A DNA stretch of 64,000 nucleotides, from the NCBI GenBank assembly GCA_919902505.1, contig CAKKRE010000006.1:62001-126000 (forward strand), read 5' to 3'. Below, piece after piece: positions 45,578 through 63,017 of the stretch; positions within the stretch are counted from its first letter, which is position 1, and every line of letters starts with the position of its first letter. The notes under the pieces are model-generated. The model did no database searches and was not told the origin of the DNA. It was given only the letters and a program-made list of their open reading frames with translations. Origin of the DNA: Nitrospiraceae bacterium (lineage in GTDB: Bacteria > Nitrospirota > Nitrospiria > Nitrospirales > Nitrospiraceae). Made by a program: the position numbers and the translations under genes.

Positions 45578-47185
45578 ATGACACCTCCCCCCGTCGAAAC
45601 CGCCGTCGTCGATTCATTCGAGCCGACCCTTGAAGGGGGCACGTCGCAAATCGGCCTTTTCCTCATCCTGATCCTTCTCACGATCGGCGGAATCTACATC
45701 GCCGGTGAATTGACCTCGGATCTCTCCGATGTTCGCGCCTCCTCAGTCTGGCCGTTTATCCTGCTCGGGTTTGCCCTGCTGATCGCGCTGGGTTTCGAAT
45801 TCGTCAACGGGTTTCACGACACGGCGAACGCCGTCGCGACCGTCATCTATACGCATTCCATGCCGCCGCATCTCGCCGTGGCCTGGTCCGGTATATGGAA
45901 CTTTATCGGCGTCATGCTCGCATCCGGGGCCGTCGCGTTCGGAATCGTCGCCCTGCTGCCGGTCGAACTGATTCTGCAAGTCAGCGCCGGAGCCGGGTTC
46001 GCCATGGTCTTTGCGCTGCTGATTGCCGCCATTTTGTGGAATCTCGGCACGTGGTATTTAGGACTTCCCTCATCGAGTTCGCATGCACTAATCGGCTCCG
46101 TCATCGGCGTCGGAATCACCAACCAATTGATGGCCGCCGGCGGTACGAATACCAGCGGCGTCGATTGGACCCAGGCCCTCAACGTAGGCAAGTCCCTCTT
46201 GTTTTCCCCGCTGATCGGATTCTCTGCCGCCGCGTTCCTCCTCTTGATCGCCATGAAGGCCGTCCCCGTCGAGAAGTTATACAAACCGCCGCGCGGCAAG
46301 ACACCGCCACCCCTGTGGATACGGGGTCTGCTCATTCTCACCTGCACGGGTGTCAGCTTTGCCCACGGGTCCAATGACGGGCAAAAGGGCATGGGTCTCA
46401 TTATGCTGATCCTCATCGGAACCGTGCCGACGGTCTATGCGCTCAATCGCACCGTGGACATTTCATACACACCTGCCTTTGTGGAAGCGTCGAGCAAATC
46501 GGAAGCCGTATTCCAGCGCCACAGCAAGACACCCATCACCCCGGCGGACCCACGACGGACCGTCGCAGAATACCTTCGCACCCACGAGGTTCGCCCGGAT
46601 ACATTGCCGGCCCTTCGCGCATTAAGCGGCATAGTGCGCACACAGATTGCCTCCTATGCCACCGTCGCCCAGATACCGACGGAGCACACCTCCAACGTGC
46701 GGAACGACATGTACCTGCTGGGAGAATCCCTGCGTTGGATGGATAAAACTCGCGAGCCGGCCTTTTCAAGATCGGATCGAGACCTCTTGCTCCACTATAA
46801 ATCCATGTTGGATAACGCCACCAAATACATCCCTGTGTGGGTCAAAGCTGCCGTGGCGATCGCGCTGGGGCTGGGCACCATGGTCGGATGGAAACGCATC
46901 GTCGTGACGGTCGGGGAGAAGATCGGAAAAACGCATCTGTCGTACGGCCAGGGCGCCAGCGCTGAATTGGTTGCGATGACGACCATCGGCGCAGCGGATC
47001 TCTTCGGGCTGCCGGTCAGCACGACACAAGTGCTGTCCTCCGGCGTAGCGGGAACCATGGCGGCCAATCGGTCTGGTTTGCAGTGGCAGACCGTCCGACA
47101 TCTTGCACTGGCATGGGTCCTGACCCTCCCGGCGTCCATCGTCTTGGCCGGATCTCTGTATTGGATGTTTCGACATTTCACATAA
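45578..47185 (+). CDS. PiT-family inorganic phosphate transporter
   Basis: 535 residues. Ten-plus membrane helices with both PiT signatures: GFEFVNGFHDTANAVATVI near residue 70 and SFAHGSNDGQKGMGLIML near 265. A cytoplasmic loop of ~130 residues separates the halves and the second half ends with LPVSTTQVLSSGVAGTMAANR. It takes up phosphate (or metal-phosphate) with a proton gradient. I see no Pho box in the 181-bp divergent upstream region. Confidence 0.93.
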   Translation: MTPPPVETAVVDSFEPTLEGGTSQIGLFLILILLTIGGIYIAGELTSDLSDVRASSVWPFILLGFALLIALGFEFVNGFHDTANAVATVIYTHSMPPHLAVAWSGIWNFIGVMLASGAVAFGIVALLPVELILQVSAGAGFAMVFALLIAAILWNLGTWYLGLPSSSSHALIGSVIGVGITNQLMAAGGTNTSGVDWTQALNVGKSLLFSPLIGFSAAAFLLLIAMKAVPVEKLYKPPRGKTPPPLWIRGLLILTCTGVSFAHGSNDGQKGMGLIMLILIGTVPTVYALNRTVDISYTPAFVEASSKSEAVFQRHSKTPITPADPRRTVAEYLRTHEVRPDTLPALRALSGIVRTQIASYATVAQIPTEHTSNVRNDMYLLGESLRWMDKTREPAFSRSDRDLLLHYKSMLDNATKYIPVWVKAAVAIALGLGTMVGWKRIVVTVGEKIGKTHLSYGQGASAELVAMTTIGAADLFGLPVSTTQVLSSGVAGTMAANRSGLQWQTVRHLALAWVLTLPASIVLAGSLYWMFRHFT

Positions 47186-47280
47186 TCCGCGCCGCCGTTC
47201 GTGAAGCGACGTGGAACGCGCGCACTGGACGGCCAGGCCCTCTCCTGGTCGACCGCGTAGCATTCAATCGGAAGGGGCAG

Positions 47281-47480
47281 GGCCTTGAGCACCCGTTCCA
47301 CTTCAGGCCGGAATCTGTGATTTCAGGCAGAGGGATAATGAGGCTGTTCGACGTGGCGAACCGCGTCGAGATGCGCACGCGCTTCGCCCGATCGGCCCGG
47401 CTCGATGACGAGTCTGGCCAGGATGAGTCCCCGCTGCCGCACGCCGCAGCATAGAGAACATGGGCCTGGGCGTTCACTTT
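47281..47480 (-). pseudogene. Degenerate copy of the TPR gene at 63350-64000
   Basis: Read on the minus strand this segment gives NAQAHVLYAAACGS, then directly LILARLVIEPGRSGEARAHLDAVRHVEQPHYPSA, an in-frame stop, and HRFRPEVERVLKAL. The same words, in order, occur in the intact protein at the right edge (NAQAHFLYAAARGS ... LILARLLIKQGRRAEARVHLDAV ... FRPEAERLLKAL), where ~220 bp lie between the first two. This copy therefore has an internal deletion plus a stop and frame changes. It fills the space between the PiT and DUF3562 genes. Confidence 0.82.
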
Positions 47481-47481
47481 T

Positions 47482-47784
47482 TCACGGACCCATTCCATCG
47501 TGGGCAGGAAGGGGATGGTTCTGATCGGTCGGTTCATGTCGAAGGGGTACACGCCAGCTTAGTCTTAGCAGCTCCTTTACCTGCTTGATGGCCAGGAGTG
47601 GAATACAAGCTTTGATCTGCGCTTCTCGCTCGAGCTGATGTCTTTCTTGGCTCAGCATCTCTTCGACATCGGATATGAGGCAGGAAAACTCTTCGGCTAT
47701 GTCCCTTGCGATGCTGTGCCAATCGAACTCCTTGCGGTCGAATGCCGCGCTCCCTTCCATTGGATTGCTGATAGTTCCATCCAT
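47482..47784 (-). CDS. DUF3562-type small protein, copy 1
   Basis: 100 residues from the ATG at 47784 (AGGAG site). Core: WHSIARDIAEEFSCLISDVEEMLSQERHQLEREAQIK, then PLLAIKQVKELLR, helical and charged, as in DUF3562. It is clearly paralogous to the 57413-57670 gene (same WHS, FSC, HQLE and IKQVK words). The last ~25 residues (after LLRLSWRVPL) have no counterpart in copy 2 and run into the TPR remnant, so its end may be altered. Function unknown. Confidence 0.7.
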   Translation of the reverse strand: MDGTISNPMEGSAAFDRKEFDWHSIARDIAEEFSCLISDVEEMLSQERHQLEREAQIKACIPLLAIKQVKELLRLSWRVPLRHEPTDQNHPLPAHDGMGP

Positions 47785-47946
47785 AGAAAAGCTCCTGTCC
47801 CGCTAGAGGGCTCAGACCTTCGGCCACGTCATAGGCACCCCAGCCAAATCCTAAGCACACCAGTGCAGGCATCAAGTCACTTAGGGAAGGTCTGATTCAT
47901 TCACGTTTGCGCTGAGCAATCAGTTCCTGGGGTGGTCAACAAGGGC

Positions 47947-49251
47947 GGCGCTTCCGGGTTTAGCATGGGTACAGATCGAGCCCTCCGCAGCGAAAGTAGA
48001 TCGCCGTCTTGAAGTGCTCGATGTTGCGGAAGCCGCAGGCCATGCTCTTGATCTTCTGAATCTGGCTGTTGAGCCCCTCGCTCATCGCGTTAGTCACCGG
48101 ATGTTGGTAGTAGGTCAGGATGTTCTCGATGTGCCGGCGGACCGTCTCCGCCGCCTTGCGAATCGGCTCCAGGCGGCTGTGCGTCGCCCAGAAGTACCAC
48201 CGTTTCCAAAACTTCCAGCCTGACGCCGGGTAGACGTAGTGCCAGAGACACCGCAGGGCCTCTTTGATCGCCCACGCCCGTCCCACCTTGAGTGCCTGGC
48301 GCCTCAGTGCGGCAAACTCCGCTCGCCGTCGCTCCGGCACGTGCTCTTGGCTATAGAGCCACAGGTACTTGCTGCCCTTGAGCGTCTCGTCGCCAGACGC
48401 CATCAACGCTCGGTGCTCCTGTTTCCGTACCGTGTCCACGGCCTTGCCGATGTGGCCCATGACATGGAAGCGGTCGAAGACGATCTTCTCCGCCGCCTCA
48501 GGCACCTGCGCCCGCGTCGCCTGGATGTAGGGCGCCCACATGTCCATCGCCACCGCTTCGATGCCGTCGAGTTGCTCCTGTGTCAGCCCCGCGTAGTAAC
48601 CGTCGAGACTCTCCTGCGTGCGGTCTTCGGCGATGTGCTCCACCGTGCCCTCGTCCAAGTCGCAGACCAGCGTCAGGTACTTGTGCCCCTTGGCCGCCGC
48701 CTTCTCATCGACGCCGATTCGGCGCACGACCCGCGCCTGCTTGCGGGCTCGACCACGCGTGACCGCCCGCGGCATGAGCCCCCACGCCTCATCCCAGCTG
48801 ATCCGCAAGATCCGCGTGGCGTTGCTGACGTCGCATTGGCGCAGCACGTCGATGGCGAGACGCTCGAACAACAGCGTGAACCGCGACCGGGGCTCCGCCC
48901 ACGGCACCGTGACCTGGACCACCCCGTGTTCACCGCAGGCCACCCGTGGGATGCGCGCGTGCAGGTGGGTCTGGAACTGGCAACTGTCCAGATGCCGCCA
49001 GGTCCGCTCCTCGGCGTGATCGTACAGCGGCAGCGTCTTGGTACAGTGGGGACACGCCCACGCCACGTCCTCCGGGTGCTCGGCCCATACGTCCACGCGC
49101 TGTCCGTTGACGTCCAGGTTCACACGGCTCACGGTCCACGGCGACTGCAGGCCCAATAGGTATTGATACAGCGCGGTGTCTTGCATGGTCAGCCCCTCCT
49201 TGGCCGACCATCCTATCCGTTCAGTCTACCCATGGGAAACCCGGAAGCACC
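47947..49251 (-). mobile_element. ISL3-family insertion sequence nested in the IS5 element
   Basis: 1305 bp. Inverted ends GGCGCTTCCGGGTTTAGC / GGTGCTTCCGGGTTTCCC (the latter read from the right), and a perfect 8-bp target duplication ACAAGGGC at 47939-47946 and 49252-49259. The 8-bp duplication is the length expected for ISL3. It inserted in the non-coding 3' flank of the IS5 element and looks complete. Confidence 0.93.
47960..49186 (-). CDS. ISL3-family transposase
   Basis: 408 residues, intact. N-terminal zinc-finger-like CPHC segment (WACPHCTKTLPLYDH) and a later Cys, then helix-turn-helix region, and DDE catalytic core with RIGVDEKAAAKGHKYLTLVCDLDEG, VAMDMWAPYIQA and DRFHVMGHIGKAVD, all diagnostic of ISL3. 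The stop codon lies inside the left inverted repeat. It is likely active because the element's ends and target duplication are undamaged. Confidence 0.95.
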   Translation of the reverse strand: MQDTALYQYLLGLQSPWTVSRVNLDVNGQRVDVWAEHPEDVAWACPHCTKTLPLYDHAEERTWRHLDSCQFQTHLHARIPRVACGEHGVVQVTVPWAEPRSRFTLLFERLAIDVLRQCDVSNATRILRISWDEAWGLMPRAVTRGRARKQARVVRRIGVDEKAAAKGHKYLTLVCDLDEGTVEHIAEDRTQESLDGYYAGLTQEQLDGIEAVAMDMWAPYIQATRAQVPEAAEKIVFDRFHVMGHIGKAVDTVRKQEHRALMASGDETLKGSKYLWLYSQEHVPERRRAEFAALRRQALKVGRAWAIKEALRCLWHYVYPASGWKFWKRWYFWATHSRLEPIRKAAETVRRHIENILTYYQHPVTNAMSEGLNSQIQKIKSMACGFRNIEHFKTAIYFRCGGLDLYPC

Positions 49252-49349
49252 ACAAGGGCTATCCGTAAGGACTACACTGGTTCGGGAGCGTCTTGGTCGG
49301 GATTCGCCCGCCGTCGGGCCGCCCGTCACCTCGTTCGCACACACACCCG

Positions 49350-50309
49350 CTAGACCACCGCCAACAGGCGCCGTCGAGCCACGTACAGATTCGCCAACCC
49401 GCAGATGATGAACAGCCAGTGGGTATTCTTCGCCAGCCCGCGGTAACGGACTTTGGACCATCCAAAGATCCGCTTGATCACCAAGAACACATGCTCGACT
49501 TTGGCACGGACTTTCGACTTCGTACGACTGCGGGCACGCTCCGCCCCGCTCAAGGGCCGATGGCGATGGGCTTTGGTCTGGATCCAATTGGCGGCATGGG
49601 GGGCGTGGTGCTGAATCACGTCGCGTTGCCCGCTGTAAGCCGCATCGCCCCACACGCGGGGCTCCTGTCCATGCAGCAGCTGGGGCAACACTTGGCTGTC
49701 ATGCACATTCGCCGCGGTGGCCGCCACTGAATGAATCAGCTTGGTCCGGCTGTCGACTCCAATATGGGCCTTCATGCCGAAATACCACTGGCTCCCCTTC
49801 TTCGTCTGATGCATCTCTGGATCCCGCTCCTTCGCGCGATTCTTCGTAGAACTGGGCGCCGCAATAATGGTGGCATCCACGATGGTCCCTCGGCTCACCT
49901 GCAGGCCCTGCTTCGCCAGATACTCCCCGATCTGCGCAAAGAGCTGTTCGCCCAGCTGGTGGGTTTCCAGCGGATGGCGAAACTTGCAAATCGTGGTCTC
50001 ATCGGGTACGGGCTCGCGGCCCAGATCAATCCCAAAAAACTTCCGCAGGGCCCGTGAGTCATACAAGGCCTCCTCCACGGCGGGGCCCGACAGGTTGAAT
50101 CACTGTTGGAGGCAATGCAACCGCAGCATGCGCTTGACGCCCACCGGCGGACGCCCGGGGCCCTCGGCCGCCTTGGGATAGACCGGCTCGATTGCCGCCA
50201 CCAGGGCCGCCCATGGCACGACACGGTTCATTTCATCGAGGAACCGCTCGCGTCGAGTGGGCTTGCGATACTGCTCAAACGTGACCTTGGCAAACGTCTG
50301 TTGCGGCAT
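49350..50309 (-). pseudogene. IS5-family transposase with premature stop
   Basis: Starting at 50309, 69 codons run to a TGA at 50100-50102 and the frame continues without shift to 49350 (a further 249 codons including the stop). The stop replaces what should be Trp in LHCLQQ-W-FNLS, conserved in IS5 transposases; TGG to TGA is a single change. The downstream part keeps the DDE residues (VDATIIAAPSS, WGDAAYSG, AKVEHVFLVIKRIFGW). Therefore the protein is truncated unless the codon is read through. Confidence 0.88.
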
Positions 50310-50575
50310 GGGGACGCCTCCAGTTCGGTGCTGCGCTACCCCCAGCCCGCATTATTCGTGACGGTTCGTCGCGAAAGTGCGGAGTCGCGAAGCGAGACGG
50401 GCGCGCGGAGCCGGGAGGGAGGAAGGCATCCGTGAACAGGATGTCGACCGACCGAGCGGCGAGCCCGCCCGCCGACAGGCTGGTCGCAGCTGCGAATCCG
50501 CGATTGCAGCAGAAGCGCTCATGAATAATGCGGGCTAGCACATCACGAACGGACAATAAATCAGACCTTCCTTAG

Positions 50576-50994
50576 CTTGGAGGTACTGAAGAGAGATCGG
50601 AATGAACGCTGCAAATGTGGAGCCAGTCAGAGCAGGAGATAGAGGTGCCTCGGTGACGGGCCGCCTGCGCTGCATTCGCATGAATGGCCGTGATGATCTG
50701 AACGCCCCAGGAATAGATCAAAATTGTTCGTACTCCACCTTACAGCATGAGAGTTTATTGTTTGCCTTATGGATCGTTACCAATGATTGTTGAACTCGCC
50801 AAAGATGGTGGTCCTGGGCTGTTGAGGGGAATCCTCATTACCTGTGACAACAGGTCCCATCCGAGTGCTGTTTTGGAGACCCAGCACTACATATAACGGC
50901 TTGGTTTCATGAAGCATCACAAACGGAGGAATAAGTTTTCCGTTTCTTAACAACATTGAAAGCGTAAATTTTCTTCACTGCACTACAGTACGAA
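50576..50994. other. Intergenic stretch between IS5 and polyamine cassette, no supported gene
   Basis: About 420 bp that hold only short frames (e.g. a 63-codon frame from 50602 without a good ribosome site or recognisable product). The base composition is more AT-rich than the core genes by eye. It probably contains the promoter of the polyamine genes; I cannot place one with confidence. Confidence 0.4.
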
Positions 50995-51012
50995 CCCTCC
51001 TGAAAAGGGAGG
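50995..51012 (+). promoter_or_regulatory. Hairpin sequestering a ribosome-site-like GGGAGG
   Basis: CCCTCC, loop TGAAAA, then GGGAGG. The 3' arm is an anti-16S-like sequence just before a short ATG frame (51015). The pairing could hide that ribosome site. It is 83 bases before the homospermidine synthase start. Confidence 0.4.
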
Positions 51013-51014
51013 CC

Positions 51015-51077
51015 ATGATTGTCGGAGCTTATTATCGCTGGCCACCCGACGGCGTTCTCGATATCCACAGATCCTGA
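51015..51077 (+). CDS. Possible 20-residue leader peptide of the polyamine genes
   Basis: Short frame MIVGAYYRWPPDGVLDIHRS with a purine-rich site AAAAGGGAGG (very close to the ATG), ending 17 bases before the ATG of homospermidine synthase, i.e. just ahead of that gene's GGGAGG. It contains a diproline (PPD) of the kind that slows ribosomes. A leader role is a hypothesis; it may also be chance. Confidence 0.25.
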   Translation: MIVGAYYRWPPDGVLDIHRS

Positions 51078-51094
51078 GATTGGGAGGTTAACAG

Positions 51095-52555
51095 ATGCTG
51101 GTATTTCCGAATCGCATCTTGTTCGTTGGTTTTGGGGCTGTCGCGCGATGCACGTTGCCGATTTTGCTGAAGCACATTAGCGTCAATCCCAAACTCATAA
51201 CTATCGTAGACTTTGAGCCCAACGAGGCGGCTTTGCAACCCTGGATCAAGCAAGGTGTGACCTTTGTTAAGGATCGCGTGACGCCGGAGAACCTGGGCAC
51301 GCTACTGGGCCAACACGCCTCGGTCGGGGACCTCATCATCGACCTGGCATGGAACATCGATTGCTGCGAGATCGTCCAGTGGTGCCACGACCGAGGCGTG
51401 CTGTACGTCAACACATCGGTGGAACTCTGGGATCCCTATGGCGGGGGAGACGACAAGCACCCTACTGAGCGGACACTTTACTGGCGGCACATGAATCTAC
51501 GAAGGATGATTGCCAGGTGGAGCGAGCCGGGGCCGACGGCGGTGGTCGAACACGGAGCGAACCCAGGTCTGATCAGCCATTTCACCAAGCAGGCTCTATT
51601 GGACATTACTCGGCAGGCTCTGGAGGATAAAAGGTTCAGTGCTGCTCAGGCAGAAAAGGTCGCGCATCACGCCCAGGCTCAGGAGTTCAACCACCTGGCC
51701 CACCAGCTCGGGGTCCGGGTCATTCATTGCAGCGAGCGCGATACGCAGATCACTGATCAGCCCAAACAGGTGGACGAGTTCGTCAATACGTGGAGCGTCG
51801 AGGGTTTTCGCGAGGAAGGGACGACCACGGCTGAGATGGGCTGGGGTACTCATGAAAAACAGCTGCCGCCCTTCGCCTACGAGCACCCAGACGGGCCCAA
51901 AAGCCAGATCTGCCTAGCGCGGATGGGCATGAACACGTTCGTGGCCAGCTGGGTGCCGCCGGACCACAACATTATCGGTATGGTCGTCCGCCACGGCGAA
52001 GCGTTCAGCATTACTGAAAAGCTAACCGTTTGGGAAGGCGACAGGGCAATCTACCGACCAACGGTTCACTACGCGTATTGCCCCTGCGATTGCGCTATCG
52101 CTTCACTCCACGAGCTACGCGGATCCGACTACAGACTGCAATCCCGTATCCGTATCATGACCGACGAAATTACCAGCGGGGCCGACATTCTGGGCGTCCT
52201 GGTGATGGGGCACACGTACCAATCATGGTGGTGCGGCTCCCACCTAGACATTGAGGAGTCGCGTCGCTTGGTGCCGCATCAGAACGCCACCACCATGCAG
52301 GTTGCCATCTCTGTCGTTGCTGCCTGCCTGTGGATGCTTGAAAACCCACGCAGGGGGTTGTGCGTGCCCGATAACCTACCCCACGACTATGTGCTCAAAG
52401 TCAGCAAGCCATACTTGGGGAAGTTCATCTCCGCTCCCACAGACTGGAACCCGCTGAAACACTACTCCAACTTCTTCCGCGGCTACAACCAGCCCCAACT
52501 CGACAGGTCCGACCCGTGGCAGTTCAAAAATTTTCTGATTATGGAAGGAGACTAA
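51095..52555 (+). CDS. hss: Homospermidine synthase
   Basis: 486 residues; ATG with GGGAGG site. The N-terminus is a NAD-binding fold (ILFVGFGAVARCTLPILLKHI), followed by IDLAWNIDCCEIVQWCHDRGVLYVNTSVELWDP, HGANPGLISHFTKQALLDI and EEGTTTAEMGWGTHEKQLP. These are features of the bacterial homospermidine synthase family (saccharopine-dehydrogenase-related). The enzyme joins two putrescines with NAD to sym-homospermidine and ammonia. The decarboxylase downstream would supply putrescine. The region between IS elements suggests recent acquisition or rearrangement. Confidence 0.9.
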   Translation: MLVFPNRILFVGFGAVARCTLPILLKHISVNPKLITIVDFEPNEAALQPWIKQGVTFVKDRVTPENLGTLLGQHASVGDLIIDLAWNIDCCEIVQWCHDRGVLYVNTSVELWDPYGGGDDKHPTERTLYWRHMNLRRMIARWSEPGPTAVVEHGANPGLISHFTKQALLDITRQALEDKRFSAAQAEKVAHHAQAQEFNHLAHQLGVRVIHCSERDTQITDQPKQVDEFVNTWSVEGFREEGTTTAEMGWGTHEKQLPPFAYEHPDGPKSQICLARMGMNTFVASWVPPDHNIIGMVVRHGEAFSITEKLTVWEGDRAIYRPTVHYAYCPCDCAIASLHELRGSDYRLQSRIRIMTDEITSGADILGVLVMGHTYQSWWCGSHLDIEESRRLVPHQNATTMQVAISVVAACLWMLENPRRGLCVPDNLPHDYVLKVSKPYLGKFISAPTDWNPLKHYSNFFRGYNQPQLDRSDPWQFKNFLIMEGD

Positions 52556-52576
52556 ATCGGCCAGCACGAGATTGAT

Positions 52577-52605
52577 ACATCTGAGACATGTTGTGTCGCA
52601 GATGT
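52577..52605 (+). promoter_or_regulatory. Hairpin between hss and the decarboxylase gene
   Basis: ACATCTG / CAGATGT plus GACA / TGTC form a 12-bp stem (one A-G mismatch) with a 5-base loop. It lies between the two cassette genes and ends 30 bases before the GTG start, so it may tune the second gene's expression or RNA decay. The 80-bp gap contains nothing else. Confidence 0.45.
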
Positions 52606-52635
52606 CAGAGGATATCGCAATCGAAAGGGGGATCC

Positions 52636-53787
52636 GTGGACCAAAAGACGCTGCTTCAACTGGCCAAGATTCATAGCACGCCGCTGGTCGTGGTGGATCA
52701 TAAAGTGCTGCGAGAGAACTATGAGCAGTTCCTTAAGCACCTGCCGCGCGTGCAGGTCTACTATGCGGTCAAGGCGAATAGTGATCCGGCAATCGTGCAG
52801 ACGTTCTACGACGTGGGGGCCAGCTTTGACGTCGCCAGCATGGCCGAGTTTTTGATCGTGCACGAGAAGATACAGCACCTGCCGGCGCAGGAGCGGCAGG
52901 ACTTCATTTGGGATCGCATCATCTACGCCAACCCCATCAAGGCAATTGAGACGCTCAAGCAGTTAGATCAATACAAGCCATTGATCACCTACGACAACCA
53001 CGAGGAGGTGCTCAAGATCGCCCGCTACGCCCCCCACTCGGGTCTCGTGTTACGGTTGGGCGTGCCCAACACTGGCTCGATGGTAGAGCTGTCGAGCAAG
53101 TTCGGCGCTTTGCCGGGCGAGGCCGTGGACCTGATCGCTTTCGCTCACAACAACAAGCTCCAGGTCGAGGGACTGAGCTTTCATGTCGGCAGCCAATGCA
53201 CGAACGTGCAAAACTACATCCAGGCTTTGCACCTGGCCGCCGGCATCTTCTCTGAGGCCAAAGACCGCGGCTTCGATCTTAAGCTGCTCGACATCGGTGG
53301 CGGTTTCCCTGCCCACTACGATGACTCCGTTCCTGCCTTCAAGAGCCTGGCCAAAACAATCAATACCGAACTGGACCGCCTTTTTCCGGAGCCGATTGAG
53401 ATTCTCGCCGAGCCGGGGCGGTTCCTGGTCGCCTCCGCCGTCACCGCCGTGGCACAAATTATCGGCAAGGCTGTCCGGGGTGGCAAGCTCTGCTATTATC
53501 TCGATGACGGCGTCTATCACACCTACAGTGGCGTGATCTTCGACCACTGCCAGTACCACTTAAAAAGCTTCAGAAAAGACCCCACGCAGCTCTGCGCCGT
53601 CTTTGGCCCTACTTGCGACGCCCTCGATACCATCAGCCTGGTCGAGCAGCTCCCTGACCTGGATCGGGGCGAATTGGTTTACGCCGAGAACATGGGCGCT
53701 TACTGTGCCGCCAGCAGCACGTACTTCAACGGTTTCCCGCCGGCCAAGGTCGTGCATGTGAACCGTGATCCCACGTCGAACGGATAG
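52636..53787 (+). CDS. Fold-III PLP decarboxylase (ornithine/lysine type)
   Basis: 383 residues from the GTG at 52636 (AGGGGG site); the ATG at 52588 would give an atypical leader. PLP lysine in VYYAVKANSD (near residue 41), HVGSQ, the phosphate-binding GGGFPAHYD, EPGR, and the active-site Cys/Asp in GPTCDALD near residue 333. This is the ornithine/arginine-type decarboxylase fold (family III). I expect ornithine to putrescine, because the partner is homospermidine synthase; lysine or carboxynorspermidine are alternatives. The end is followed by IS3 debris. Confidence 0.88.
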   Translation: MDQKTLLQLAKIHSTPLVVVDHKVLRENYEQFLKHLPRVQVYYAVKANSDPAIVQTFYDVGASFDVASMAEFLIVHEKIQHLPAQERQDFIWDRIIYANPIKAIETLKQLDQYKPLITYDNHEEVLKIARYAPHSGLVLRLGVPNTGSMVELSSKFGALPGEAVDLIAFAHNNKLQVEGLSFHVGSQCTNVQNYIQALHLAAGIFSEAKDRGFDLKLLDIGGGFPAHYDDSVPAFKSLAKTINTELDRLFPEPIEILAEPGRFLVASAVTAVAQIIGKAVRGGKLCYYLDDGVYHTYSGVIFDHCQYHLKSFRKDPTQLCAVFGPTCDALDTISLVEQLPDLDRGELVYAENMGAYCAASSTYFNGFPPAKVVHVNRDPTSNG

Positions 53788-53929
53788 GTAATCCAGTGCG
53801 ACCCGGCCGCTGCAATAGGTTCATTGCTTTGCTCCCGGTTCTTACACCACAGCCAAAGAAGTGGCTCCTTTGCCAGATGGGCCCATTTGATAGGTGCTGA
53901 TTAACTCCTGGAGTGTCACAACCTCAATG

Positions 53930-54090
53930 GTCCTGAGCGTCGGGTCTTAATTGTATTCCTGTCGCCAGGCTTCAATCACGAGCTGCGGTTCCTGTACCGT
54001 CAGAAGCCAGCGCTCATTGCGACATTCCTAAACTTGCCATTCAAGCTTTCAATTAACGCGTACTGCGACGGATCCCTCTGTTGGATGAAA
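53930..54090 (-). pseudogene. Remnant of an IS3-family transposase (OrfB end)
   Basis: In the minus strand the words QQRDPSQYALIESLNGKFRN, then (after a frame change) NERWLLTVQEPQLVIEAWRQEYN, are readable; intact IS3-family OrfB has the IESFNGKLRDE...NERWF...IEAWR..YN order. A frame break and a stop are present and no inverted ends remain. The rest of 53788-54130 has no gene that I can support. Confidence 0.75.
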
Positions 54091-54130
54091 TGCAACCGCA
54101 CCACATGCCAACTGCCGGAGGTTCTTTTGG

Positions 54131-54298
54131 TTATGCCGCTTCCTGGACAGTTTCAAGAACATCTGTATGGGTAGCAGTTGGGCGCCCCTCCGATCTCATT
54201 GTCACCCGCCGCCTCTCCGAATCGCACTCTCGTGCCAGGCTCTCAACGAGTACCCATACTAACGCCGTCATCGTCACCACTCCGATCATCGTTACCAT
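54131..54298 (-). CDS. Small single-helix membrane protein
   Basis: 55 residues from the ATG at 54298, which follows GGAGG by 5 bases. One hydrophobic helix (MIGVVTMTALVWVLVESLA) and a basic tail. Unknown. Upstream, 54299-54666 has no supported gene; short frames on either strand look accidental. Confidence 0.4.
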   Translation of the reverse strand: MVTMIGVVTMTALVWVLVESLARECDSERRRVTMRSEGRPTATHTDVLETVQEAA

Positions 54299-54666
54299 TT
54301 CGCCCTCCAATTCGATACATATGACGGTCCAAGTGCCGCCTGACAACAAACTGTCAATGCAATGGAGGTGCCACAGAGCGCCTCCGGTGTCTGTAACTCA
54401 TTCTTCACGAAGGCTTAATCGTACGGAAATCGCGCGGGCAAATTTTCACGCTGAAGGCGACGCGATCCTGCGTTGGTAGCGAAGGCGCATCTACAGGGCT
54501 GTTCAATTTCTGACGGGAGGGCGTCACTAATGACGATGAATGATCCTGGACATGTGACCTCAGCCTCTTGAACGGTTTCAAGCCTTACGTGAGGAATAGT
54601 GTGGGCCAGAAAGGTCATCTGCTCTTATCTTTCGCCGACCGTCGGATGTCCTTCGCCAGCAAGCGG

Positions 54667-54774
54667 CTACTCGTGCGGGGACAAGAAGAACACGACGCGC
54701 AAGATATAGACGATGCCCAGAAACACAAACCCTCCAAACGCGAGGTGGAGGAAAAAATCGACCAATTCAGCCAT
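54667..54774 (-). CDS. Tiny membrane protein (35 residues)
   Basis: Start chosen at the second ATG (54774), which has GGAG 6 bases upstream; another ATG lies at 54786. One hydrophobic helix: LHLAFGGFVFLGIVYILRVV, then FFLSPHE. Shape resembles small stress or respiratory-subunit membrane proteins but no family can be named. Confidence 0.45.
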   Translation of the reverse strand: MAELVDFFLHLAFGGFVFLGIVYILRVVFFLSPHE

Positions 54775-55030
54775 GTGGCGCTCCATGTATGATGATAGTG
54801 CTGAGACTCTACTCACGTCATGTTACGGCGGGGTTTCGGTGCACTCAAAAAACCTTAACGAGAAGGAGGACACAGGTTGGAGGGTGAGGGGTGGCTTGCA
54901 CGGAAGGCCGATGACCGTTCGAGCGGTGGAGACTGTATTCCCGGTCCGGTCATGTCGTGATTGATCCCGTTTCGACAGAGACTGCATTCAGTTGCTTGTG
55001 GGGCGGAGTCCTGCCAGAATGCTTCGCTAA

Positions 55031-55396
55031 ATGGCGACTCCGACATCATCTCTCACGCAGTGTCCCGATGTGCTCGTACCGTTAATGGCCAACATCCTGG
55101 CCTCGAGGCCAATCATCGACCGCCTGCACAGCGACCCGCGGGCACGGCGAACCCAACCCTCAAGCTCCACGATGCAGTGCCTTCATCGACAGATGGTAGC
55201 GCTCACCCGCGAGGAGTATGACGAGCTGATGATGTTGTTTAACCGAACCATGGGGCAACCCTTCACAGTTCCACTTGAGCCGTCTCAGAAAATCTGTACG
55301 GTGACTTTTGCCACCCCGCCCCTCCTCGCCAGGCAACTGGTCCACATCAGCCTTCGAAAACTTGCTTCGACCAGAATTAAGCTAGCGCACCAATAA
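55031..55396 (+). CDS. Hypothetical protein, weakly supported
   Basis: 121 residues from an ATG at 55031 without a clear ribosome site. The middle (MVALTREEYDELMMLFNRTMGQPF) is helical and charged; nothing is recognised. Codon pattern is not obviously coding. The stretches 54787-55030 and 55397-55584 contain no supported gene. Confidence 0.3.
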   Translation: MATPTSSLTQCPDVLVPLMANILASRPIIDRLHSDPRARRTQPSSSTMQCLHRQMVALTREEYDELMMLFNRTMGQPFTVPLEPSQKICTVTFATPPLLARQLVHISLRKLASTRIKLAHQ

Positions 55397-55784
55397 CAGT
55401 GCAATCGCACACGAGATGGACCTGTAGGACTGGGCGATGTCCTCAGAGGGGAAGATGCTCGCTCAGAGCCCGGGGGCTTGTCCCCTCGCCGGGCAGGAAG
55501 GGACAAGGCGCCCGGAGCCAGGTGCGTGAGAGATGCGCAGCTGGCCCCGAAGTACGGGCACGCTGGAAACGCACATCGCATAAATTAATTTTGCATGGTG
55601 TCTTTCTCGGCAAGGGAAAGGCAGGGAACGCACAACAGCGCATCGGGTTGAACCTGAAGCCGTTCGTAGGGAATGTCCTCGCGGCAGCGGCGGCACCAAC
55701 CATAGTCGCTTGTACAAATCAATTGCAGCGCGCGTTCGATGCGACGGAGTTTGGCAATCGTCCGGACCTTCGCCAGCATGGCTA

Positions 55785-56922
55785 GTGTAGTGTCTCAGTA
55801 ATATCTTTCCAATAGTGGTTGGTTCTGGTATCGTCCGGGGTATGTGGAAACCAACCGACTCGTTGCCGATGACGGGAGCACAGAAACAGACATTGGAGGC
55901 GTGGATGCGGGCGAAGACCAGTCCCCAGCGGGTGGTGCTGCGGGCGCGGATCTGCCTGCGGGCGGCCGAGGGAAAATCCAACCACGCCATCGCTCAGCAG
56001 TTGGGGACCTCGCGTCCGACCGTGCTGCTGTGGCGGAAACGGTTCCACGACGCGGGACCGTCGGGGCTGTCCGAGGATGCCCCGCATGGGCCCAGTGCCC
56101 AACGTCTGTCGCCCCGAACAGTCCGGGCCATCGTGGAAGCCACCCTGCACACCACGCCGCCAGACGCAACCCACTGGAGTACGCGGACCATGGCGCACGC
56201 CCAGGGGGTCAGCCATGCCAGCGTGGCGCGGATCTGGGACGCGCACGGCTTGCAACCGCACCGGATCGAGACCTTCAAGCTGTCGAAGGACAAGCGGTTT
56301 GTGGAGAAGTTGACGGATGTGGTGGGCGTCTACCTCACCCCCCCCGGACAAGGCGCTGGTGCTGTGTGTGGATGAGAAATCCCAGGTCCAAGCGTTGGAT
56401 CGGACACAACCGGGCTTGCCCATGAAGAAGGGGCGATGCGGCACCCTGACGCATGATTACAAGCGCCACGGGACCACCTGTCTGTTCGCGGCGCTCAATG
56501 TGCTCGACGGCACCGTGATCGGCACCTGTTACCCGCGGCATCGGAACGAGGAGTTTCTGAAGTTCCTGCGGACCCTCGACCGAGACACGTCGCCAGGGCT
56601 GGCCCTCCACCTGATCCTGGACAACTACGGGACGCACCACCACCCCAATGTCAAGACGTGGCTGGCGAACCATCCACGATTTCATCTGCACGTTACCCCG
56701 ACGAGCGCCTCGTGGCTGAACCTCGTCGAGCGGTGGTTCGGTGAAATCACGCGCAAGCGCATTCGGCGAGGCGTCTTTAAGAGCGTGCCGGAGCTGGTCG
56801 CGGCGATTGAGGAGTTCATTCGGTGCAACAACCGGAACCCCAAACCGTTCGTGTGGACCAAAACAGTCGAAGAGATTCTGGAGAAGACCAAGCATTGTAA
56901 AGCCGTGATTGAGACACCACAC
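55785..56922 (+). mobile_element. IS630-family insertion sequence in the DksA/TraR-type gene
   Basis: 1138 bp. Inverted ends GTGTAGTGTCTCA and the complement of TGAGACACCACAC (12 of 13). A TA dinucleotide lies on each side (55783-55784 and 56923-56924), the classic IS630 target duplication. The transposase reads in the plus direction, opposite to the disrupted gene. Confidence 0.93.
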
Positions 56923-56925
56923 TAG
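55842..56925 (+). pseudogene. IS630-family transposase, two frames joined at a C8 run
   Basis: Frame 1 (ATG at 55842, or a GTG at 55815) holds the helix-turn-helix (NHAIAQQLGTSRPTVLLWRKRF) and runs to YLTPP, then ends out of frame. Frame 2 picks up at [21 protein letters not shown] and contains the catalytic DDE parts ([28 protein letters not shown]). The junction is eight Cs (ending at 56345); removing one C gives [18 protein letters not shown] in a single frame. Either an indel or programmed +1 slippage explains it. The stop codon uses the TA target bases. Confidence 0.8.
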
Positions 56926-57337
56926 ACCTTTCTCCCGATCGACCGACGCTTGGTCGGTGGGATCGGGACAGGCCTCGAACTCTGCATCAGTCGTTAAAGA
57001 GGATTTCGAGCTGACTAAAAGAAGCGTCCGCTGACGTGTCAGTTCAGCCCACAATTCTGTTTTCTGAAAGGGCGATCGTGTCCGACCTGAAGATGCGAGC
57101 CTCCCGGCGATCTGGAGTGACGACTGTTGTCGCGATGGCCTGGTACGAGACATAGGGTCCTCCCTTTTTGTAGGAAGGAGAATAACGCAGGATTGTGCGC
57201 TCCTTCGTAACGGTTCGATCAATTCTCTGTAACAGACAAGTCGAAACTATCCCTCTCTCCTTTTGCCGCGGAATGAGGAGACGAGTAGCGTCGCCTTAAT
57301 AAGGGATCTGAAATGCCGGAAAGCTAATGGTCCGCTT

Positions 57338-57375
57338 ACGTGAGTATCGCCTGCGAATTGATGCGATACTCACGT
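57338..57375. promoter_or_regulatory. 13-bp perfect inverted repeat between DUF3562 copy 2 and the DksA-type gene
   Basis: ACGTGAGTATCGC is followed after 12 bases by its exact complement. It lies 37 bp past the stop of the minus-strand DUF3562 gene and 185 bp before the DksA-type start, so it could be a terminator (no T-run) or operator. The remainder of 57154-57412 has no gene. Confidence 0.5.
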
Positions 57376-57412
57376 GTTGGCTCGGAGTGATGGCTGGATC
57401 AGAAAGTCGTGT

Positions 57413-57670
57413 TCAAAGGGGGAGGGATTGATGCGCTCTCAGAAGGTCTTTCACCTGCTTAATGACCAGGAGGGGAACAAAATCTTTGATGTGTGCCTCT
57501 TGCTCGAGCTGGTGCATTTCGGCGCACAGCATCTTTTCAATTTCGGACACTGGACAAGAAAACGCTCCGGCTATGTCCTGCGCGACGCTGTGCCAGTTTA
57601 ATTGCTGACGGTCGACCACGGCTCTCTCTTCCATTAGATCACTAGTTGATGGATCTATAGCACGTCCCAT
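57413..57670 (-). CDS. DUF3562-type small protein, copy 2
   Basis: About 85 residues if started at the ATG at 57670; a TTG at 57721 would add 17. Core WHSVAQDIAGAFSCPVSEIEKMLCAEMHQLEQEAHIK, PLLVIKQVKDLLR, matching copy 1 at 47482-47784. The alignment of the two N-termini favours the ATG. Function unknown; DUF3562 proteins are short helical proteins. Confidence 0.7.
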   Translation of the reverse strand: MGRAIDPSTSDLMEERAVVDRQQLNWHSVAQDIAGAFSCPVSEIEKMLCAEMHQLEQEAHIKDFVPLLVIKQVKDLLRAHQSLPL

Positions 57671-57890
57671 GTCTGGTAGAAGTTCTTTGGCCGCTTTAAG
57701 CGCTCTTTTTAGACTAACCAACTATACTGACCGGATCAAGTGTTCCAGACAAGTGACGGCGCTCTTGGTCCCTATGCCCATGCTTTTTGCCCTTGCTTCT
57801 TCAGCTTGGTCCAAGCTTTTGAAAGCCCCGCCCGTACCTTCCGGCACCGCTCGCACTGTCGCTCGATGAGTCGTCCTAGTGAGAATGCCG

Positions 57891-59222
57891 CTAACCCGCT
57901 GTGGCTTGACCAAGGAGTTTTCGTAATCGCTGCTCGGTCACCACAGCATCATGATGGTCACCCAGGAGGTCTTGAAACACTTTGGCGCGACGAAGGAAGC
58001 GCCTGGCCGGTTTGCCGACGCAAGTTTGAGCCAGCTCACCTGCGTAGCGCGCCCGCTTGCCCTTGATGCGTATCCGGTGGAGCACCGTATCACTCGCATC
58101 CAGTCCGCTTGTCTTTATGGCTCGGCGGAGTTTTTTGAATTCTGCGCGGGCAATATCCGCCAAGGACACTGCGGCATCGCCCACGGCTGGTGACAGGACA
58201 CCGGTCTCCAGTCCTTCGAGCAACGCCAGGTAGCGATCACTTTCGAGGGCCTCCAGGAGCGTCACCCGCGCCGCCATTCGCTGTTGTTGAAGCCGTTCCA
58301 GCAGTCCTTCAACGGCGCGGCGCTCGGGCACTCGGAGAATACTGCATTCTTTATCGAGGTGCCCCAACAGGACATCTAGATCGCGGACTGGCCCCAGTGT
58401 GCTGGACAGCCAGGCCACCTCGGTCCGGATGTGTTCTGGCCAGTTCGGAACGAGCATTGATTGCGCGGCTCGGAGGTACGCGCGAAGCCGTCGCGTGGCA
58501 ACCCGCATCTTGTGGAGTTCCTCGGGATCGGTGCCGAGCCTGGTTCCCGGATCGTGCGCCAGGATCAGCTTCACCTGAGTTCGCAACGAGGCCTTGAAAT
58601 GTTCAATCGGCGGAGATGATGAGGGTAGCACCGAGTCAATTGGAACCGGTAGCCCCAGCCCTAATACCTGAAAGACCTTGGGTCTCGGATCGCCATCCAG
58701 AGCCCCGGCCTCGCGCAAGGTCTTTTCGATCCGTCGAAGGTCCGTATCATTACCGCCCAGGAGCTCGACTTCAAGCTCATACAGGCGACACTTCACCCGT
58801 CGCCCCTCCAGTGCGACGACCGAGTCCACCACTACATCAGCCGAGGGCTTTTTGAGCCCACTTACGCGAATCCAAGTCCGCCGCGTGCGCAGCCTGGCAA
58901 CCGGCTTTATGGACTGCCCCCGGAGATGCGCAAAGAGGAGCTTTATGAGGGAATCCGGTGGCTGCGTCAGGTCGCCAGCAAACTCTAATTCCAATCGGGC
59001 CGTGTCTTGAGGGAGCTTGAGTTGCCACGTCCCCTCGCGCGCTTTGGCTCGATACCGGAGCGTAATGCCGGCCTGTGCCAGTTGATAGTTCTCCGTATCA
59101 AAGTAGGTGGAGGTAAATACTTGGGGAGGCAACGGCTCTCCGGGGATTTGAGGCAAGACAAAGTCTCGCTTTACACTGAGCTTAACCTCGCGCTCAAGCG
59201 TTTGTTTGTCTGGTAGGGGCAT
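57891..59222 (-). CDS. CYTH-CHAD domain protein
   Basis: 443 residues. N-terminal CYTH tunnel domain with LEREVKLSVK and later Lys/Arg/Glu strands (TLRYRAKAREGTWQLKLP; YELEVELLGG), then a CHAD domain from ~residue 210 with EELHKMRVATRRLRAYLRAAQ and RIRIKGKRARYAGELA. CYTH domains hydrolyse triphosphates and CHAD domains bind polyphosphate. Upstream on the same strand is the atypical pyruvate kinase gene, with a 360-bp gap. Confidence 0.93.
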   Translation of the reverse strand: MPLPDKQTLEREVKLSVKRDFVLPQIPGEPLPPQVFTSTYFDTENYQLAQAGITLRYRAKAREGTWQLKLPQDTARLELEFAGDLTQPPDSLIKLLFAHLRGQSIKPVARLRTRRTWIRVSGLKKPSADVVVDSVVALEGRRVKCRLYELEVELLGGNDTDLRRIEKTLREAGALDGDPRPKVFQVLGLGLPVPIDSVLPSSSPPIEHFKASLRTQVKLILAHDPGTRLGTDPEELHKMRVATRRLRAYLRAAQSMLVPNWPEHIRTEVAWLSSTLGPVRDLDVLLGHLDKECSILRVPERRAVEGLLERLQQQRMAARVTLLEALESDRYLALLEGLETGVLSPAVGDAAVSLADIARAEFKKLRRAIKTSGLDASDTVLHRIRIKGKRARYAGELAQTCVGKPARRFLRRAKVFQDLLGDHHDAVVTEQRLRKLLGQATAG

Positions 59223-59582
59223 TGAAATATCGCCTTAGCCGGATGGGAATGGGTCCTAAGTGACGTGGCACTGCTGGACCCGTCACATGGCATACTATCG
59301 TCGCAGAGGTTCCTTTGTCACGAGACAGTCCGGAGAATGTTGGGGTGGTTTACACAACAGATCTGTTGGATAAGCGGCCCCGATCGAGTATGGGCCAAGC
59401 GGGGGACGTTCTGAATCTGGTCGCCCTGGCTGGGCAGGCACTGTCCGAAGCGGAAATCCCGCACGAGTAGATGCAGTTCATCCTGCACTGCAAGCGATCG
59501 GACGATTTGTCCAGAAGTTCAACCGTGGGGACTCATAACGCATCCGGACTGGCCGCCACGTCTTCGACGGTCACTCGGGGCA
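59223..59582. other. Gap between pyruvate kinase and CYTH-CHAD genes
   Basis: Only a 40-codon plus-strand open stretch (about 59345-59469; VVYTTDLLDK...) is seen, with no start or family that I can support. It may hold the CYTH-CHAD promoter. GTGACG and CGTCAC near 59260-59285 are weak inverted copies. Confidence 0.35.
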
Positions 59583-61466
59583 TTAGGACTGCATCCTTGA
59601 GTTGGTGAATATTCCATACTGGGGAGTGATCTCCCGGAAGACTTCTCGTTTTTTTAGATGGTATGGCTCTTCTGCCTTGAGCAGGTGAGCGAGAGTTTTC
59701 ACTGCATCGAGCACATGCTCTCCCTTGTTGAGCATGACACATTCTGCCCGGTGGCCCATGGCTGCGTCCGTGATTTCCGCTCGCGCAGGTAAGCCGCTCT
59801 TGGCCAAGGTTTCGAGCACTTGCGTGGCCCATATCACCGGAATATGCGCCGCCTCGCAAAGGCAGAGGATGTCCTCCTGAACACGCGCGAGACGCTCAAA
59901 ACCTACCTCTACTGCCAAGTCGCCGCGCGCGATCATGACACCGAAGTTGGGCAACCCAAGCCCCGCAAGTAGCAACTGCGCCAATTGGTGGACCGTCCCC
60001 TGAGTCTCCACCTTGAGCACTATTCCCAAGTCAGGAACTTCCAGCTCCTTCAAGGCATCACGGAGGTCGTACAGATCTTCGGGACGATGGACGAACGAGA
60101 GGCCGACCGCATTCGCATGCTTGACGACAAACGATAAGTCCCCTCGATCCCGCGCCGTGAGCGCCGGCAAATTCAATGAAGAGTCCGGGAAGTTCAACCC
60201 TTTGTCGGACCTGATACGCGCTGGAATAGCGCACGGAGCTGTGATTTCTAGATCCAAATAGTGCTCGTGGATGGCCACGACGGTCGCTGCGATTTTGCCG
60301 TCATCAATATAGACCCGGTCTCCGGTCTTCACGGAGGGCAGCGCTTCCGGGAGGGTACAACTGATGCCGGCCGGCATACCGTCACGGGCGAGGCACCCCG
60401 GCTGTTCGGGGTTGCGATACAAGTGCAGTCGGTCTCTCGCCTGTACGCGGAGATCCACCGGCTGCGGCGTCACTGGACCAACGGTGAGGTTCAATCCCTG
60501 TTCGCCTCGCAGCAAGATGCCCTCCTGCAGGTAGGCCGTCCGCTCAAGGCCGACCCGGACTTGCGTTGGACTGATACGCTCAAGCACGTAGAGGGTACGA
60601 GGGCGGTTTCTGGCGTCTTCAAATTGGAGGGTTTCGCCAAGACGCAATCCTTCTACATTGTCTGGCTCCTGTATGGCGATCACGAACTGAAGGCTCTCCT
60701 CCGGGCGTCGGACCCACCCCGTATACCGAGCCCTGACATCGAGGCGGCCCTCAAGCAATCGACTGGGCCGTCCTGCCGCATCCTTTGGAACCGAGAATTT
60801 TAGCGGACGAGTCTCGTGCTCCAGGGGTCCTGTGCGCACCTTGGGACCCGCCAAATCCATCAAGATCCGACACCGTCGTCCCACGCTCCGCCCACCCTGT
60901 GTCAGCCGCCCCTCAGCAGACCGGATCGATTTGATGATCTGTTCCCATTCAGGTTCGGTATCGTGAGCGCAATTGATTCGGGCGATATCCATCCCTTCGA
61001 GCAACAATTGGTCAAGCAATTCTGCCTGGTGAATGATGGCCGCATCCAGAGTCACCATAATCCTGGTTCTTCGGTCGGCACGGGGGCGACCGAGAAGCGC
61101 TCGGCTGCGCTGTGCCAAGAGGGAGGAGGCCTTCTTGAGGTCTGGGAGGGACAGGGTTGTGTCAGCCGGCATGGCCCCTACATAACCCATGACGTGTTGC
61201 AGGCTGGCCATGACACTTCCTTCGAGACGTCCCAAAGAAGACAGGCCGCGATCTGCCAGCTCAAACTGAAGGTCTTGCAAATCGTGGTCGCGTAGCGCGA
61301 GGTACGCGAGCAAATTGTCACGGCTGCACGCACTGTCAGAATCGCATGACCGGAAGTCGGAGTCTACCGACTCCACTCGGTCTAGGATCTCCGAGTAGAG
61401 AATCTCAAGCTTCCGGGCGAGCGGGCTCTGCTGCGGGTCTGTCGCTGGACGGCGCTTGCTGGTCAC
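59583..61466 (-). CDS. Pyruvate-kinase-like protein with ~125-residue N-terminal extension
   Basis: 627 residues from a GTG at 61466 (GAGGTG site). The catalytic (beta/alpha)8 motifs are there: RINCAHD, MDLAGPKVRTG, the Lys in IVLKVETQGTVHQL, MIARGDLAVEVGFERL and PVIWATQVLETLAKSGLPARAEITDAA. The first 125 residues (helical, acidic; SDSACS segment) and a long insertion between the strands are unusual. The regulatory C-terminal domain of classical PykF/PykA is missing. I infer a distinct subfamily; activity is likely but untested. Confidence 0.82.
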   Translation of the reverse strand: MTSKRRPATDPQQSPLARKLEILYSEILDRVESVDSDFRSCDSDSACSRDNLLAYLALRDHDLQDLQFELADRGLSSLGRLEGSVMASLQHVMGYVGAMPADTTLSLPDLKKASSLLAQRSRALLGRPRADRRTRIMVTLDAAIIHQAELLDQLLLEGMDIARINCAHDTEPEWEQIIKSIRSAEGRLTQGGRSVGRRCRILMDLAGPKVRTGPLEHETRPLKFSVPKDAAGRPSRLLEGRLDVRARYTGWVRRPEESLQFVIAIQEPDNVEGLRLGETLQFEDARNRPRTLYVLERISPTQVRVGLERTAYLQEGILLRGEQGLNLTVGPVTPQPVDLRVQARDRLHLYRNPEQPGCLARDGMPAGISCTLPEALPSVKTGDRVYIDDGKIAATVVAIHEHYLDLEITAPCAIPARIRSDKGLNFPDSSLNLPALTARDRGDLSFVVKHANAVGLSFVHRPEDLYDLRDALKELEVPDLGIVLKVETQGTVHQLAQLLLAGLGLPNFGVMIARGDLAVEVGFERLARVQEDILCLCEAAHIPVIWATQVLETLAKSGLPARAEITDAAMGHRAECVMLNKGEHVLDAVKTLAHLLKAEEPYHLKKREVFREITPQYGIFTNSRMQS

Positions 61467-61700
61467 GAGTGCACCTCATATAGAAATATCTGCCTGTAAA
61501 CTCATCCTTGTCACCCTGTTTCTGACGAAACGGGAATGCCTTGCTCGACAGTCAGGTGCAGGTCGAACACGTTCCCTATCACGGCTGTTCTCTCAATCGT
61601 GAATGCTTCTTCGTTAGACAAGCAGCGGCAAAATCACTTCCCAGGAATAGAATACCGGCTAGGTCGCTGGAGGAGAAATCAGGTCCCTGTCAACCAAACG

Positions 61701-61874
61701 TCATGAAACCTTAGAATGTTGCGTGTGAACGACCACAAAGGCGCCACATTCACAGCACCTCAATGTATCGGCTTTGTTGCCGTGAGAATCACAGATATTT
61801 TCGAGCATGCGACTATGCAAGCAGTTCGATGCAGGGCGGGTCGGCAGAGTCGCGACTACCTTATCGACTTTCAT
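61701..61874 (-). CDS. Small Cys-rich (zinc-ribbon-like) protein
   Basis: 57 residues from an ATG at 61874 with GGGGG 6 bases upstream. C-terminal CDSHGNKADTLRCCECGAFVVVH suggests zinc binding. Unknown. The gap 61467-61700 contains no supported gene. Confidence 0.5.
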   Translation of the reverse strand: MKVDKVVATLPTRPASNCLHSRMLENICDSHGNKADTLRCCECGAFVVVHTQHSKVS

Positions 61875-62000
61875 CTTCATCCCCCTTTGCGACATTGGTG
61901 CTCCGATTGACGATCAGTCAATACGCGATCTATCGGTTGAACCGGTTGCGTTGGCGACGCACACTCTCCCCAGACCTTGCACCAAGTGCGGCCCCCGGCA

Positions 62001-62966
62001 TTAGTCCAACCAACCCTTCTTTCGGAAATACACATAGGGGGCGGCACCGGCGAGAATCATAAAGAACAGGGCAGCCGGATAGCCCCAGCCCCACTTTAGT
62101 TCCGGCATATTTTCAAAATTCATTCCATAGACACTCGCTACCAGCGTGGGCGGAAGAAAGACCACCGCCACAATGGAGAATATTTTGATAATCTTGTTCT
62201 GCTCCAGATTAATCATGCCGAGGAGAGCATCCATCAAGAAATTGATCTTGTCGAAAATAAACCCCGTATGCCCGGTCAAGGAATCGATATCGCGGAGGAC
62301 CCCTTTGACCCTCTGTGTTTGTTCGGGCGAAAGCACACGACTCCGCAATAGAAAGGAGAGTGCCCGCCTGTTATCAATCAAGTCCAATCGCACTTTGGAG
62401 TTCAGATCCTCTTGCGCCGCAATACGTTCCACGTTCTCACGCATGACACGAGAAGTGATGTGCCCCTTCCGACTCAGCACCACGGCCCCGACTTCATCCA
62501 AAGCTCCATAAATCTGTTCCAAGACATCCGCGTCCCGTTCCACTCCGAGCTCATAACATCCGAGCAAGATGTCGCCTGCATCGCTGACCACCCGCCGCCC
62601 TGACCGCGCTTGCATGCGAAAGAGCCGTAATACGCTCAAATCGTCATCGTGCACCGTTAACAATCGCCCTTGATGCAGGCTGAAGGACATGGTGACGATC
62701 GACGCAATATCTTCGACCGTCTGGACGAACGTCGAGCGAATGTGCACACCATGTTGATCCTGGTAATACCGCGCGCTGGCTTCCAGATCTTGCAATTCTT
62801 CGTCTTCGGGAAGTTCGAGTGGAAACACAGATTGCACCAGCTCGCGCTCCTGTTCGCTCGGATAGGCCAAATCGACCCAAATCAAATCTTTTCGAGTCAG
62901 GTCTTGCCTGTCATCGATTCGAGCCTGGATCACCCGCCCCTCATCTAAGACAAATGCGCCAACCAT
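62001..62966 (-). CDS. corA: CorA-family magnesium/cobalt transporter
   Basis: 321 residues. A large cytoplasmic domain, then two C-terminal helices with the signature YGMNFENMPE (GMN motif) and a basic end (YFRKKGWLD). Forms a pentameric cation channel. An ATG at 62966 is used; the purine-rich site is ~12 bases away. Confidence 0.95.
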   Translation of the reverse strand: MVGAFVLDEGRVIQARIDDRQDLTRKDLIWVDLAYPSEQERELVQSVFPLELPEDEELQDLEASARYYQDQHGVHIRSTFVQTVEDIASIVTMSFSLHQGRLLTVHDDDLSVLRLFRMQARSGRRVVSDAGDILLGCYELGVERDADVLEQIYGALDEVGAVVLSRKGHITSRVMRENVERIAAQEDLNSKVRLDLIDNRRALSFLLRSRVLSPEQTQRVKGVLRDIDSLTGHTGFIFDKINFLMDALLGMINLEQNKIIKIFSIVAVVFLPPTLVASVYGMNFENMPELKWGWGYPAALFFMILAGAAPYVYFRKKGWLD

Positions 62967-63017
62967 AATGCGGATTCACTCCCTGTATGCGGCTGCTCTG
63001 CTTAGAATCAGGTTGCT

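Follow-up and report, generated by a model that had tools for sequence, protein, structure and literature searches.

A predicted ornithine-to-homospermidine operon in Nitrospira, probably acquired across phyla and held at changing chromosomal sites

The window analyzed here, 64,000 nucleotides of the 4.24-Mb genome G000 of a member of the genus Nitrospira (contig C6, 62001-126000), contains two adjacent, co-directional genes lying among insertion sequence (IS) elements, which raises the question as to what these genes make, from where they came, and whether the neighboring elements carried them there. The first-pass annotation had called them a homospermidine synthase gene and a fold-III decarboxylase gene, and matches to Pfam and the PDB bore this out, except that the start of the decarboxylase had to be corrected. 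We consider it probable that the pair is a functional operon (hss-odc), which reached Nitrospira in a single event from a Planctomycetota-like source and has been kept there by selection, without the IS elements having been its vehicle.

The first gene, hss (51095-52555, + strand), is complete; its product, of 486 aa, is a full-length homospermidine synthase (HSS) of the bacterial type, assigned from Pfam and PDB matches. It consists of the domains Sacchrp_dh_NADP (PF03435, residues 8-150) and Sacchrp_dh_C (PF16653, residues 154-444). At E<=1e-3 it matches 14 PDB structures, every one a homospermidine synthase, the best at 8e-107, and the alignment to them spans residues 2-481. For the enzyme of Blastochloris viridis (BvHSS), roles have been reported for N162, E237, H296, E298, and a conserved tryptophan (PMC4725965), the number W229 for the latter being derived from the numbering of the same helix in that paper. 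In the alignment to 4PLP, these five residues (N162, W229, E237, H296, and E298) correspond to N156, W233, E241, H300, and E302 of the window HSS. Domain layout, length, and the five catalytic equivalents are the same as in BvHSS (PDB 4PLP/4TVB) and in PDB 2PH5. Unlike BvHSS, however, the window enzyme has a glutamate at the position equivalent to S236, and its closest relatives are from Planctomycetota and not from Proteobacteria. Judged by this family membership, the enzyme would form sym-homospermidine from two putrescines, using bound NAD.

The second gene, odc (52636-53787, + strand), encodes a PLP-dependent ornithine-type decarboxylase of fold III (alanine-racemase fold), with an Orn_Arg_deC_N and a C-terminal domain (Pfam). 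Its true start is GTG 52636, resulting in a protein of 383 aa, because ATG occupies this position in the five other Nitrospira copies; ATG 52588 is not conserved. The active-site motifs YAVKAN (lysine 46), GPTCDxxD (cysteine 327), and LDDGVYH (with its aspartate) are present. Among solved structures (PDB), it is closest to lysine/ornithine decarboxylases and ornithine decarboxylases, with E values as low as 9e-71, and the fold-III PLP architecture with its GPTCD motif is shared with the lysine/ornithine decarboxylases 2PLJ and 5GJM and with eukaryotic ornithine decarboxylase, from all of which odc differs in being partnered with an HSS. Diaminopimelate decarboxylase was ruled out as an assignment because the protein scored 161 bits against the lysA model, which is below the cut-off of 298 bits; a separate lysA (425 aa) is present elsewhere in the same genome. 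The HSS partner and the aspartate kept in LDDGVYH suggest that the substrate is ornithine rather than lysine, and the enzyme would thus convert ornithine (possibly also lysine) to putrescine. That odc is mainly a lysine decarboxylase or a bifunctional lysine/ornithine decarboxylase, with the operon leading to cadaverine-derived polyamines, is an improbable reading: the nearest solved structures are indeed bifunctional enzymes of this kind, but the pairing of odc with HSS is conserved, BvHSS has one substrate site with high specificity for putrescine, and no cadaverine was seen at the active site of that enzyme (PMC4725965).

The arrangement of hss and odc as an operon is widespread. Outside Nitrospira, odc was near hss in 75 of 79 loci, and directly downstream of it in 74, the loci spanning Planctomycetota, Verrucomicrobiota, Acidobacteriota, Gemmatimonadota, Elusimicrobiota, Myxococcota, Lentisphaerota, and others. 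In the window, the two genes have the order, orientation, and tight spacing of the pair in Planctomycetota, Verrucomicrobiota, and their neighbors (74/79 loci); in contrast to the pair of those hosts, that of Nitrospira is accessory and located at three different sites (designated A, B, and C, site A being that of the window). Ahead of hss lies a leader of ∼165 bp (50930-51094, + strand) that is common to the window and the copies at site B, the block of homology to loci L117, L118, and L121 starting at 50929-50930. Conserved in it are AATAAGTTTTCC.TTTCTTAA and CACTA.AGT, as well as GGGAGG ahead of the start codon. The leader presumably holds the promoter of the operon; no RNA element was found in it by Rfam search of 46000-64000. 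Across all Nitrospira pairs, dN/dS of both genes was 0.04-0.10 (0.04-0.07 for hss), except for one ODC pair (0.17). Given the catalytic residues and the strong purifying selection on both genes, the pair is very probably functional.

Of the 29 genomes of the genus, 6 contain hss, whereas searching 71 other genomes of the order turned up no copy. The six copies occupy three chromosomal sites, which have only the gene pair in common (plus, for A and B, the leader). Site B, carried by G015, G025, and G006, is beside genes for a molybdate-type ABC transporter; site C, carried by G026 and G017 (L119/L120), is beside a CHAD-like gene. Syntenic comparison with stretches of G018, G023, and G027 was used to look for empty B and C sites, the B flanks being covered in G027 only. 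In this relative of the B genomes, which lacks hss, the flanks enclose a different segment of ∼18 kb. That segment (G027:C10, ∼89045-107452; L315, L316) encodes several very large proteins of unknown function, all in one direction.

The copies of HSS and ODC from Nitrospira form one clade, with a support of 98 in each gene tree and of 100/100 in the concatenated tree. In both gene trees, this clade is nested among Planctomycetota sequences plus one metagenome-assembled genome (MAG) of Acidobacteriota, and its nearest neighbor, with modest support, is a Planctomycetaceae MAG; as the nearest outside sequences are from MAGs, their taxonomic labels may be wrong. A foreign origin, which the first-pass annotation had proposed, is supported because the cassette is patchy in the genus, absent from the rest of the order, and nested among Planctomycetota copies, and because the two genes are also neighbors in 74 of 79 loci outside the genus. 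Cross-phylum entry into Nitrospira thus appears well supported.

Within the Nitrospira clade, the branching order is (A,(B,C)), with a support of 99/96 and a p-AU of 0.02 for both alternatives. Rooted DNA trees of the cassette gave the same order, and so did the concatenated core genes, of which alaS was not trusted on its own because it conflicted with the other markers. Compared with other core genes of lineage C, its alaS (L195, G026) lies far nearer to lineage B, which suggests exchange of alaS. At fourfold sites, divergence between A and B was 0.33-0.44 for the cassette versus 0.48-0.61 for core genes, which favors some later exchange, and between A and C, and B and C, it was close to that of the core. 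Because synonymous divergence is core-like and the branching order species-like, entry of the cassette is not recent. Comparing gene trees with the species tree, suggested earlier as a test that could refute transfer, gave an answer in two parts: the two genes depart from the species tree between phyla but follow it within Nitrospira.

On the 20-genome tree, a single entry requires nine losses, compared with three independent gains, so that parsimony favors single entry no more than it does repeated exchange within Nitrospira. That the cassette was gained three separate times, at sites A, B, and C, through exchange among Nitrospira lineages and unsampled relatives is a possibility that we rate somewhat short of an even chance. 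Beside parsimony, it draws on the different chromosomal contexts of the three sites, on the flanks of site A being joined without the insert in near sister species and in B-lineage genomes, and on the low synonymous divergence between A and B. However, the six copies form a single clade in which the order of the species is reproduced with support, the A-C and B-C divergences are core-like, and part of the site-A insert is left in G010, so that loss may also happen there. According to the explanation we prefer, a single entry from a Planctomycetota-like source would have occurred at or before the split of the three carrier lineages; afterward, selection would have retained the cassette in a minority of species, while it was also lost, moved to other positions, or handed on to other members of Nitrospira, so that it came to lie in strain-variable places, the insert of the window among them.

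This insert (15.9 kb, 47428-63351) is strain-variable and lies between pitA and the next core gene. Its flanks (to 47427 and from ∼63352) are directly joined in seven relatives, of which four lack hss and three have it at another site. The ends of the insert bear two pairs of imperfect direct repeats, ∼47272-47427/63352-63508 (77% over 158 bp) and 47428-47475/63726-63773 (83% over 48 bp), which are too diverged for a mechanism to be named. Beside pitA of G010, only the right part of the insert is present (a CHAD remnant, a pyruvate-kinase-like gene, and corA), on a contig without hss, and a large part of the core neighboring the insert is missing from G023 and G014. Because of this partial insert and these gaps, the spot beside pitA is regarded as a site of repeated gain and loss. 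GC content is 57.3% for hss, 57.8% for odc, and 57.5% for the insert, compared with 60.9% in window positions 1-47427, and 57-60% for the hss-odc copies at the other sites. The more AT-rich composition reported by the first-pass annotation is therefore real but small (3-4 points below the window core).

The right part of the insert (57413-63239, − strand) encodes a DUF3562 protein, a CHAD/CYTH protein, a protein with a pyruvate-kinase barrel, CorA, and a small zinc-ribbon-like ORF (Pfam). The barrel is the sole Pfam match of a protein of 627 aa (59583-61466), with its best stretch at residues 364-580. Two DUF3562 genes (47482-47784 and 57413-57721; direct repeats, 72% over 237 nt) bracket the half of the insert containing the IS elements and hss-odc. 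A 190-bp sequence downstream in the insert (61700-61889) recurs with 77-80% identity in L117 (7986-8175) and in oriented L121 (8102-8290), where it sits just upstream of hss at site B.

The mobile elements reported around the pair were also found. Upstream is an IS5-family element (47885-50571, − strand) with perfect 13-bp ends and a TTAG duplication, whose transposase frame (49350-50078) lacks the N-terminus (NF033581 matched from profile position 55). It is interrupted by an apparently intact ISL3-family element (47947-49251, − strand; NF033550) with 25-bp inverted ends and the 8-bp duplication ACAAGGGC, and by a MITE-like element of 193 bp (50344-50536) with 45-nt inverted ends. A relative of the latter (82%) occurs elsewhere in G018 (oriented L225, 13558-13751). 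Downstream are a weak relic of an IS3-family orfB (53900-54090, − strand), recognized by eye from the short, frameshifted translated motif IESLNGKFR and ERWLLTVQEPQLVIEAWRQEYN, and an IS630-family transposase in two overlapping frames (55815-56925, + strand; NF033545 on both).

This setting had been taken to suggest transfer, but the IS elements are not supported as carriers. It is very unlikely that an IS-based composite transposon or an integrase-borne island brought the cassette here: elements on either side, the lower GC content, and the imperfect direct repeats bounding the insert would fit it, but the flanking elements are of different families, IS5 and ISL3 each have their own target duplication, no IS end coincides with the edge of the block common to the hss copies, and the repeats are just 77-83% identical. 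In addition, a Pfam scan of ORFs around site B (G015 copy) revealed no transposase, and the IS630 adjoining the G026 copy at site C (L119, 3616-4780) is missing from the otherwise colinear locus of G017 (L120) and is a later insertion. Such a vehicle is thus largely contradicted. The pair thus gains and loses neighboring IS elements, given that Pfam revealed no transposase near the G015 copy and that the IS630 is in G026 but not in G017, and in the preferred explanation those of the window would be later or bystander insertions in a variable spot. As to specific vehicles, a composite transposon was rejected since there is no same-family IS pair (IS5/ISL3 on the left, the IS3 relic and IS630 on the right) and the copies at site B appear IS-free. 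A genomic island was rejected since no integrase was found among the insert ORFs scanned with Pfam, no tRNA gene was found in the window, and the ends carry imperfect repeats only. Plasmid and phage were rejected with best matches of 49% and 29% identity, respectively.

Both HSS and its spread by horizontal transfer are well-established topics, and a 2010 study reportedly dealt with multifarious transfer of the homospermidine pathway. The operon and the type of transfer are already known, and the cassette is a clear, well-resolved example of this kind; its presence in Nitrospira seems to be unreported, as no report of hss in the genus was found in the literature searched. It documents a history in two steps, cross-phylum entry followed by patchy retention at changing sites within the genus. 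A 2023 survey of 70 nitrifier genomes listed no gene for ornithine decarboxylase, speC, and for Nitrospira speA and speB (PMC10753782); the cassette places a predicted ornithine-to-homospermidine operon in nitrifying bacteria.

Whether homospermidine would be new to the cell is doubtful. A SpeD-family gene is present in 27 of 29 genomes of the genus. Pyruvoyl-dependent ornithine decarboxylase (SpeDC) is diagnosed by the spacing of Ser63, His68, and Cys83 and by Gln, Thr, Phe, and Tyr at four positions (PMC10407285). In the SpeD-family protein of the window genome (L175), the processing spacing of Ser, His, and Cys is intact, and VQLIETSLISGHFAN...AYLDIFSC matches the diagnostic residues in order, a correspondence that refers to their order and not to exact logo columns. 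Each of the 28 genus genomes searched for a deoxyhypusine-synthase (DHS)-like gene has one, and the sequences read show the catalytic-lysine motif SWGK. Because the DHS family, which includes the homospermidine synthase SpeY and also caldomycin synthase (PMC10981699), has several products, and because the protein reaches no NCBIfam cut-off, the product of this gene is uncertain. The SpeDC plus SpeY route (PMC10407285) has the same predicted product as the cassette, and likely homologs of both enzymes are in the genus, but they are non-homologous to those of hss-odc and unlinked to it. Because the genus carries SpeDC-like and DHS/SpeY-like genes, the cassette may duplicate, with unrelated enzymes, a homospermidine route already there. 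More tentatively, there might be two complete, non-homologous routes from ornithine to homospermidine, a genus-core SpeDC/SpeY-like one and the acquired PLP/HSS operon, the latter strongly selected and perhaps condition-specific. The locus is thus a compact system in which to ask why a cell retains two further, unrelated enzymes for a metabolite that it may already make.

For the carboxyspermidine route, no gene above the nspC cut-off was found in the genus, nor was a canonical spermidine synthase (SpeE); the window genome has only a fused MFS/spermidine-synthase-type protein (L176, 892-2523; G000:C36). This fused protein occurs throughout the genus, although the SpeD-family gene resembles that of an ornithine rather than an AdoMet decarboxylase. 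G017 carries two DHS-like genes of the same type (L275, L271), one of them near-identical to that of G005, which indicates either contamination of the bin or recent transfer.
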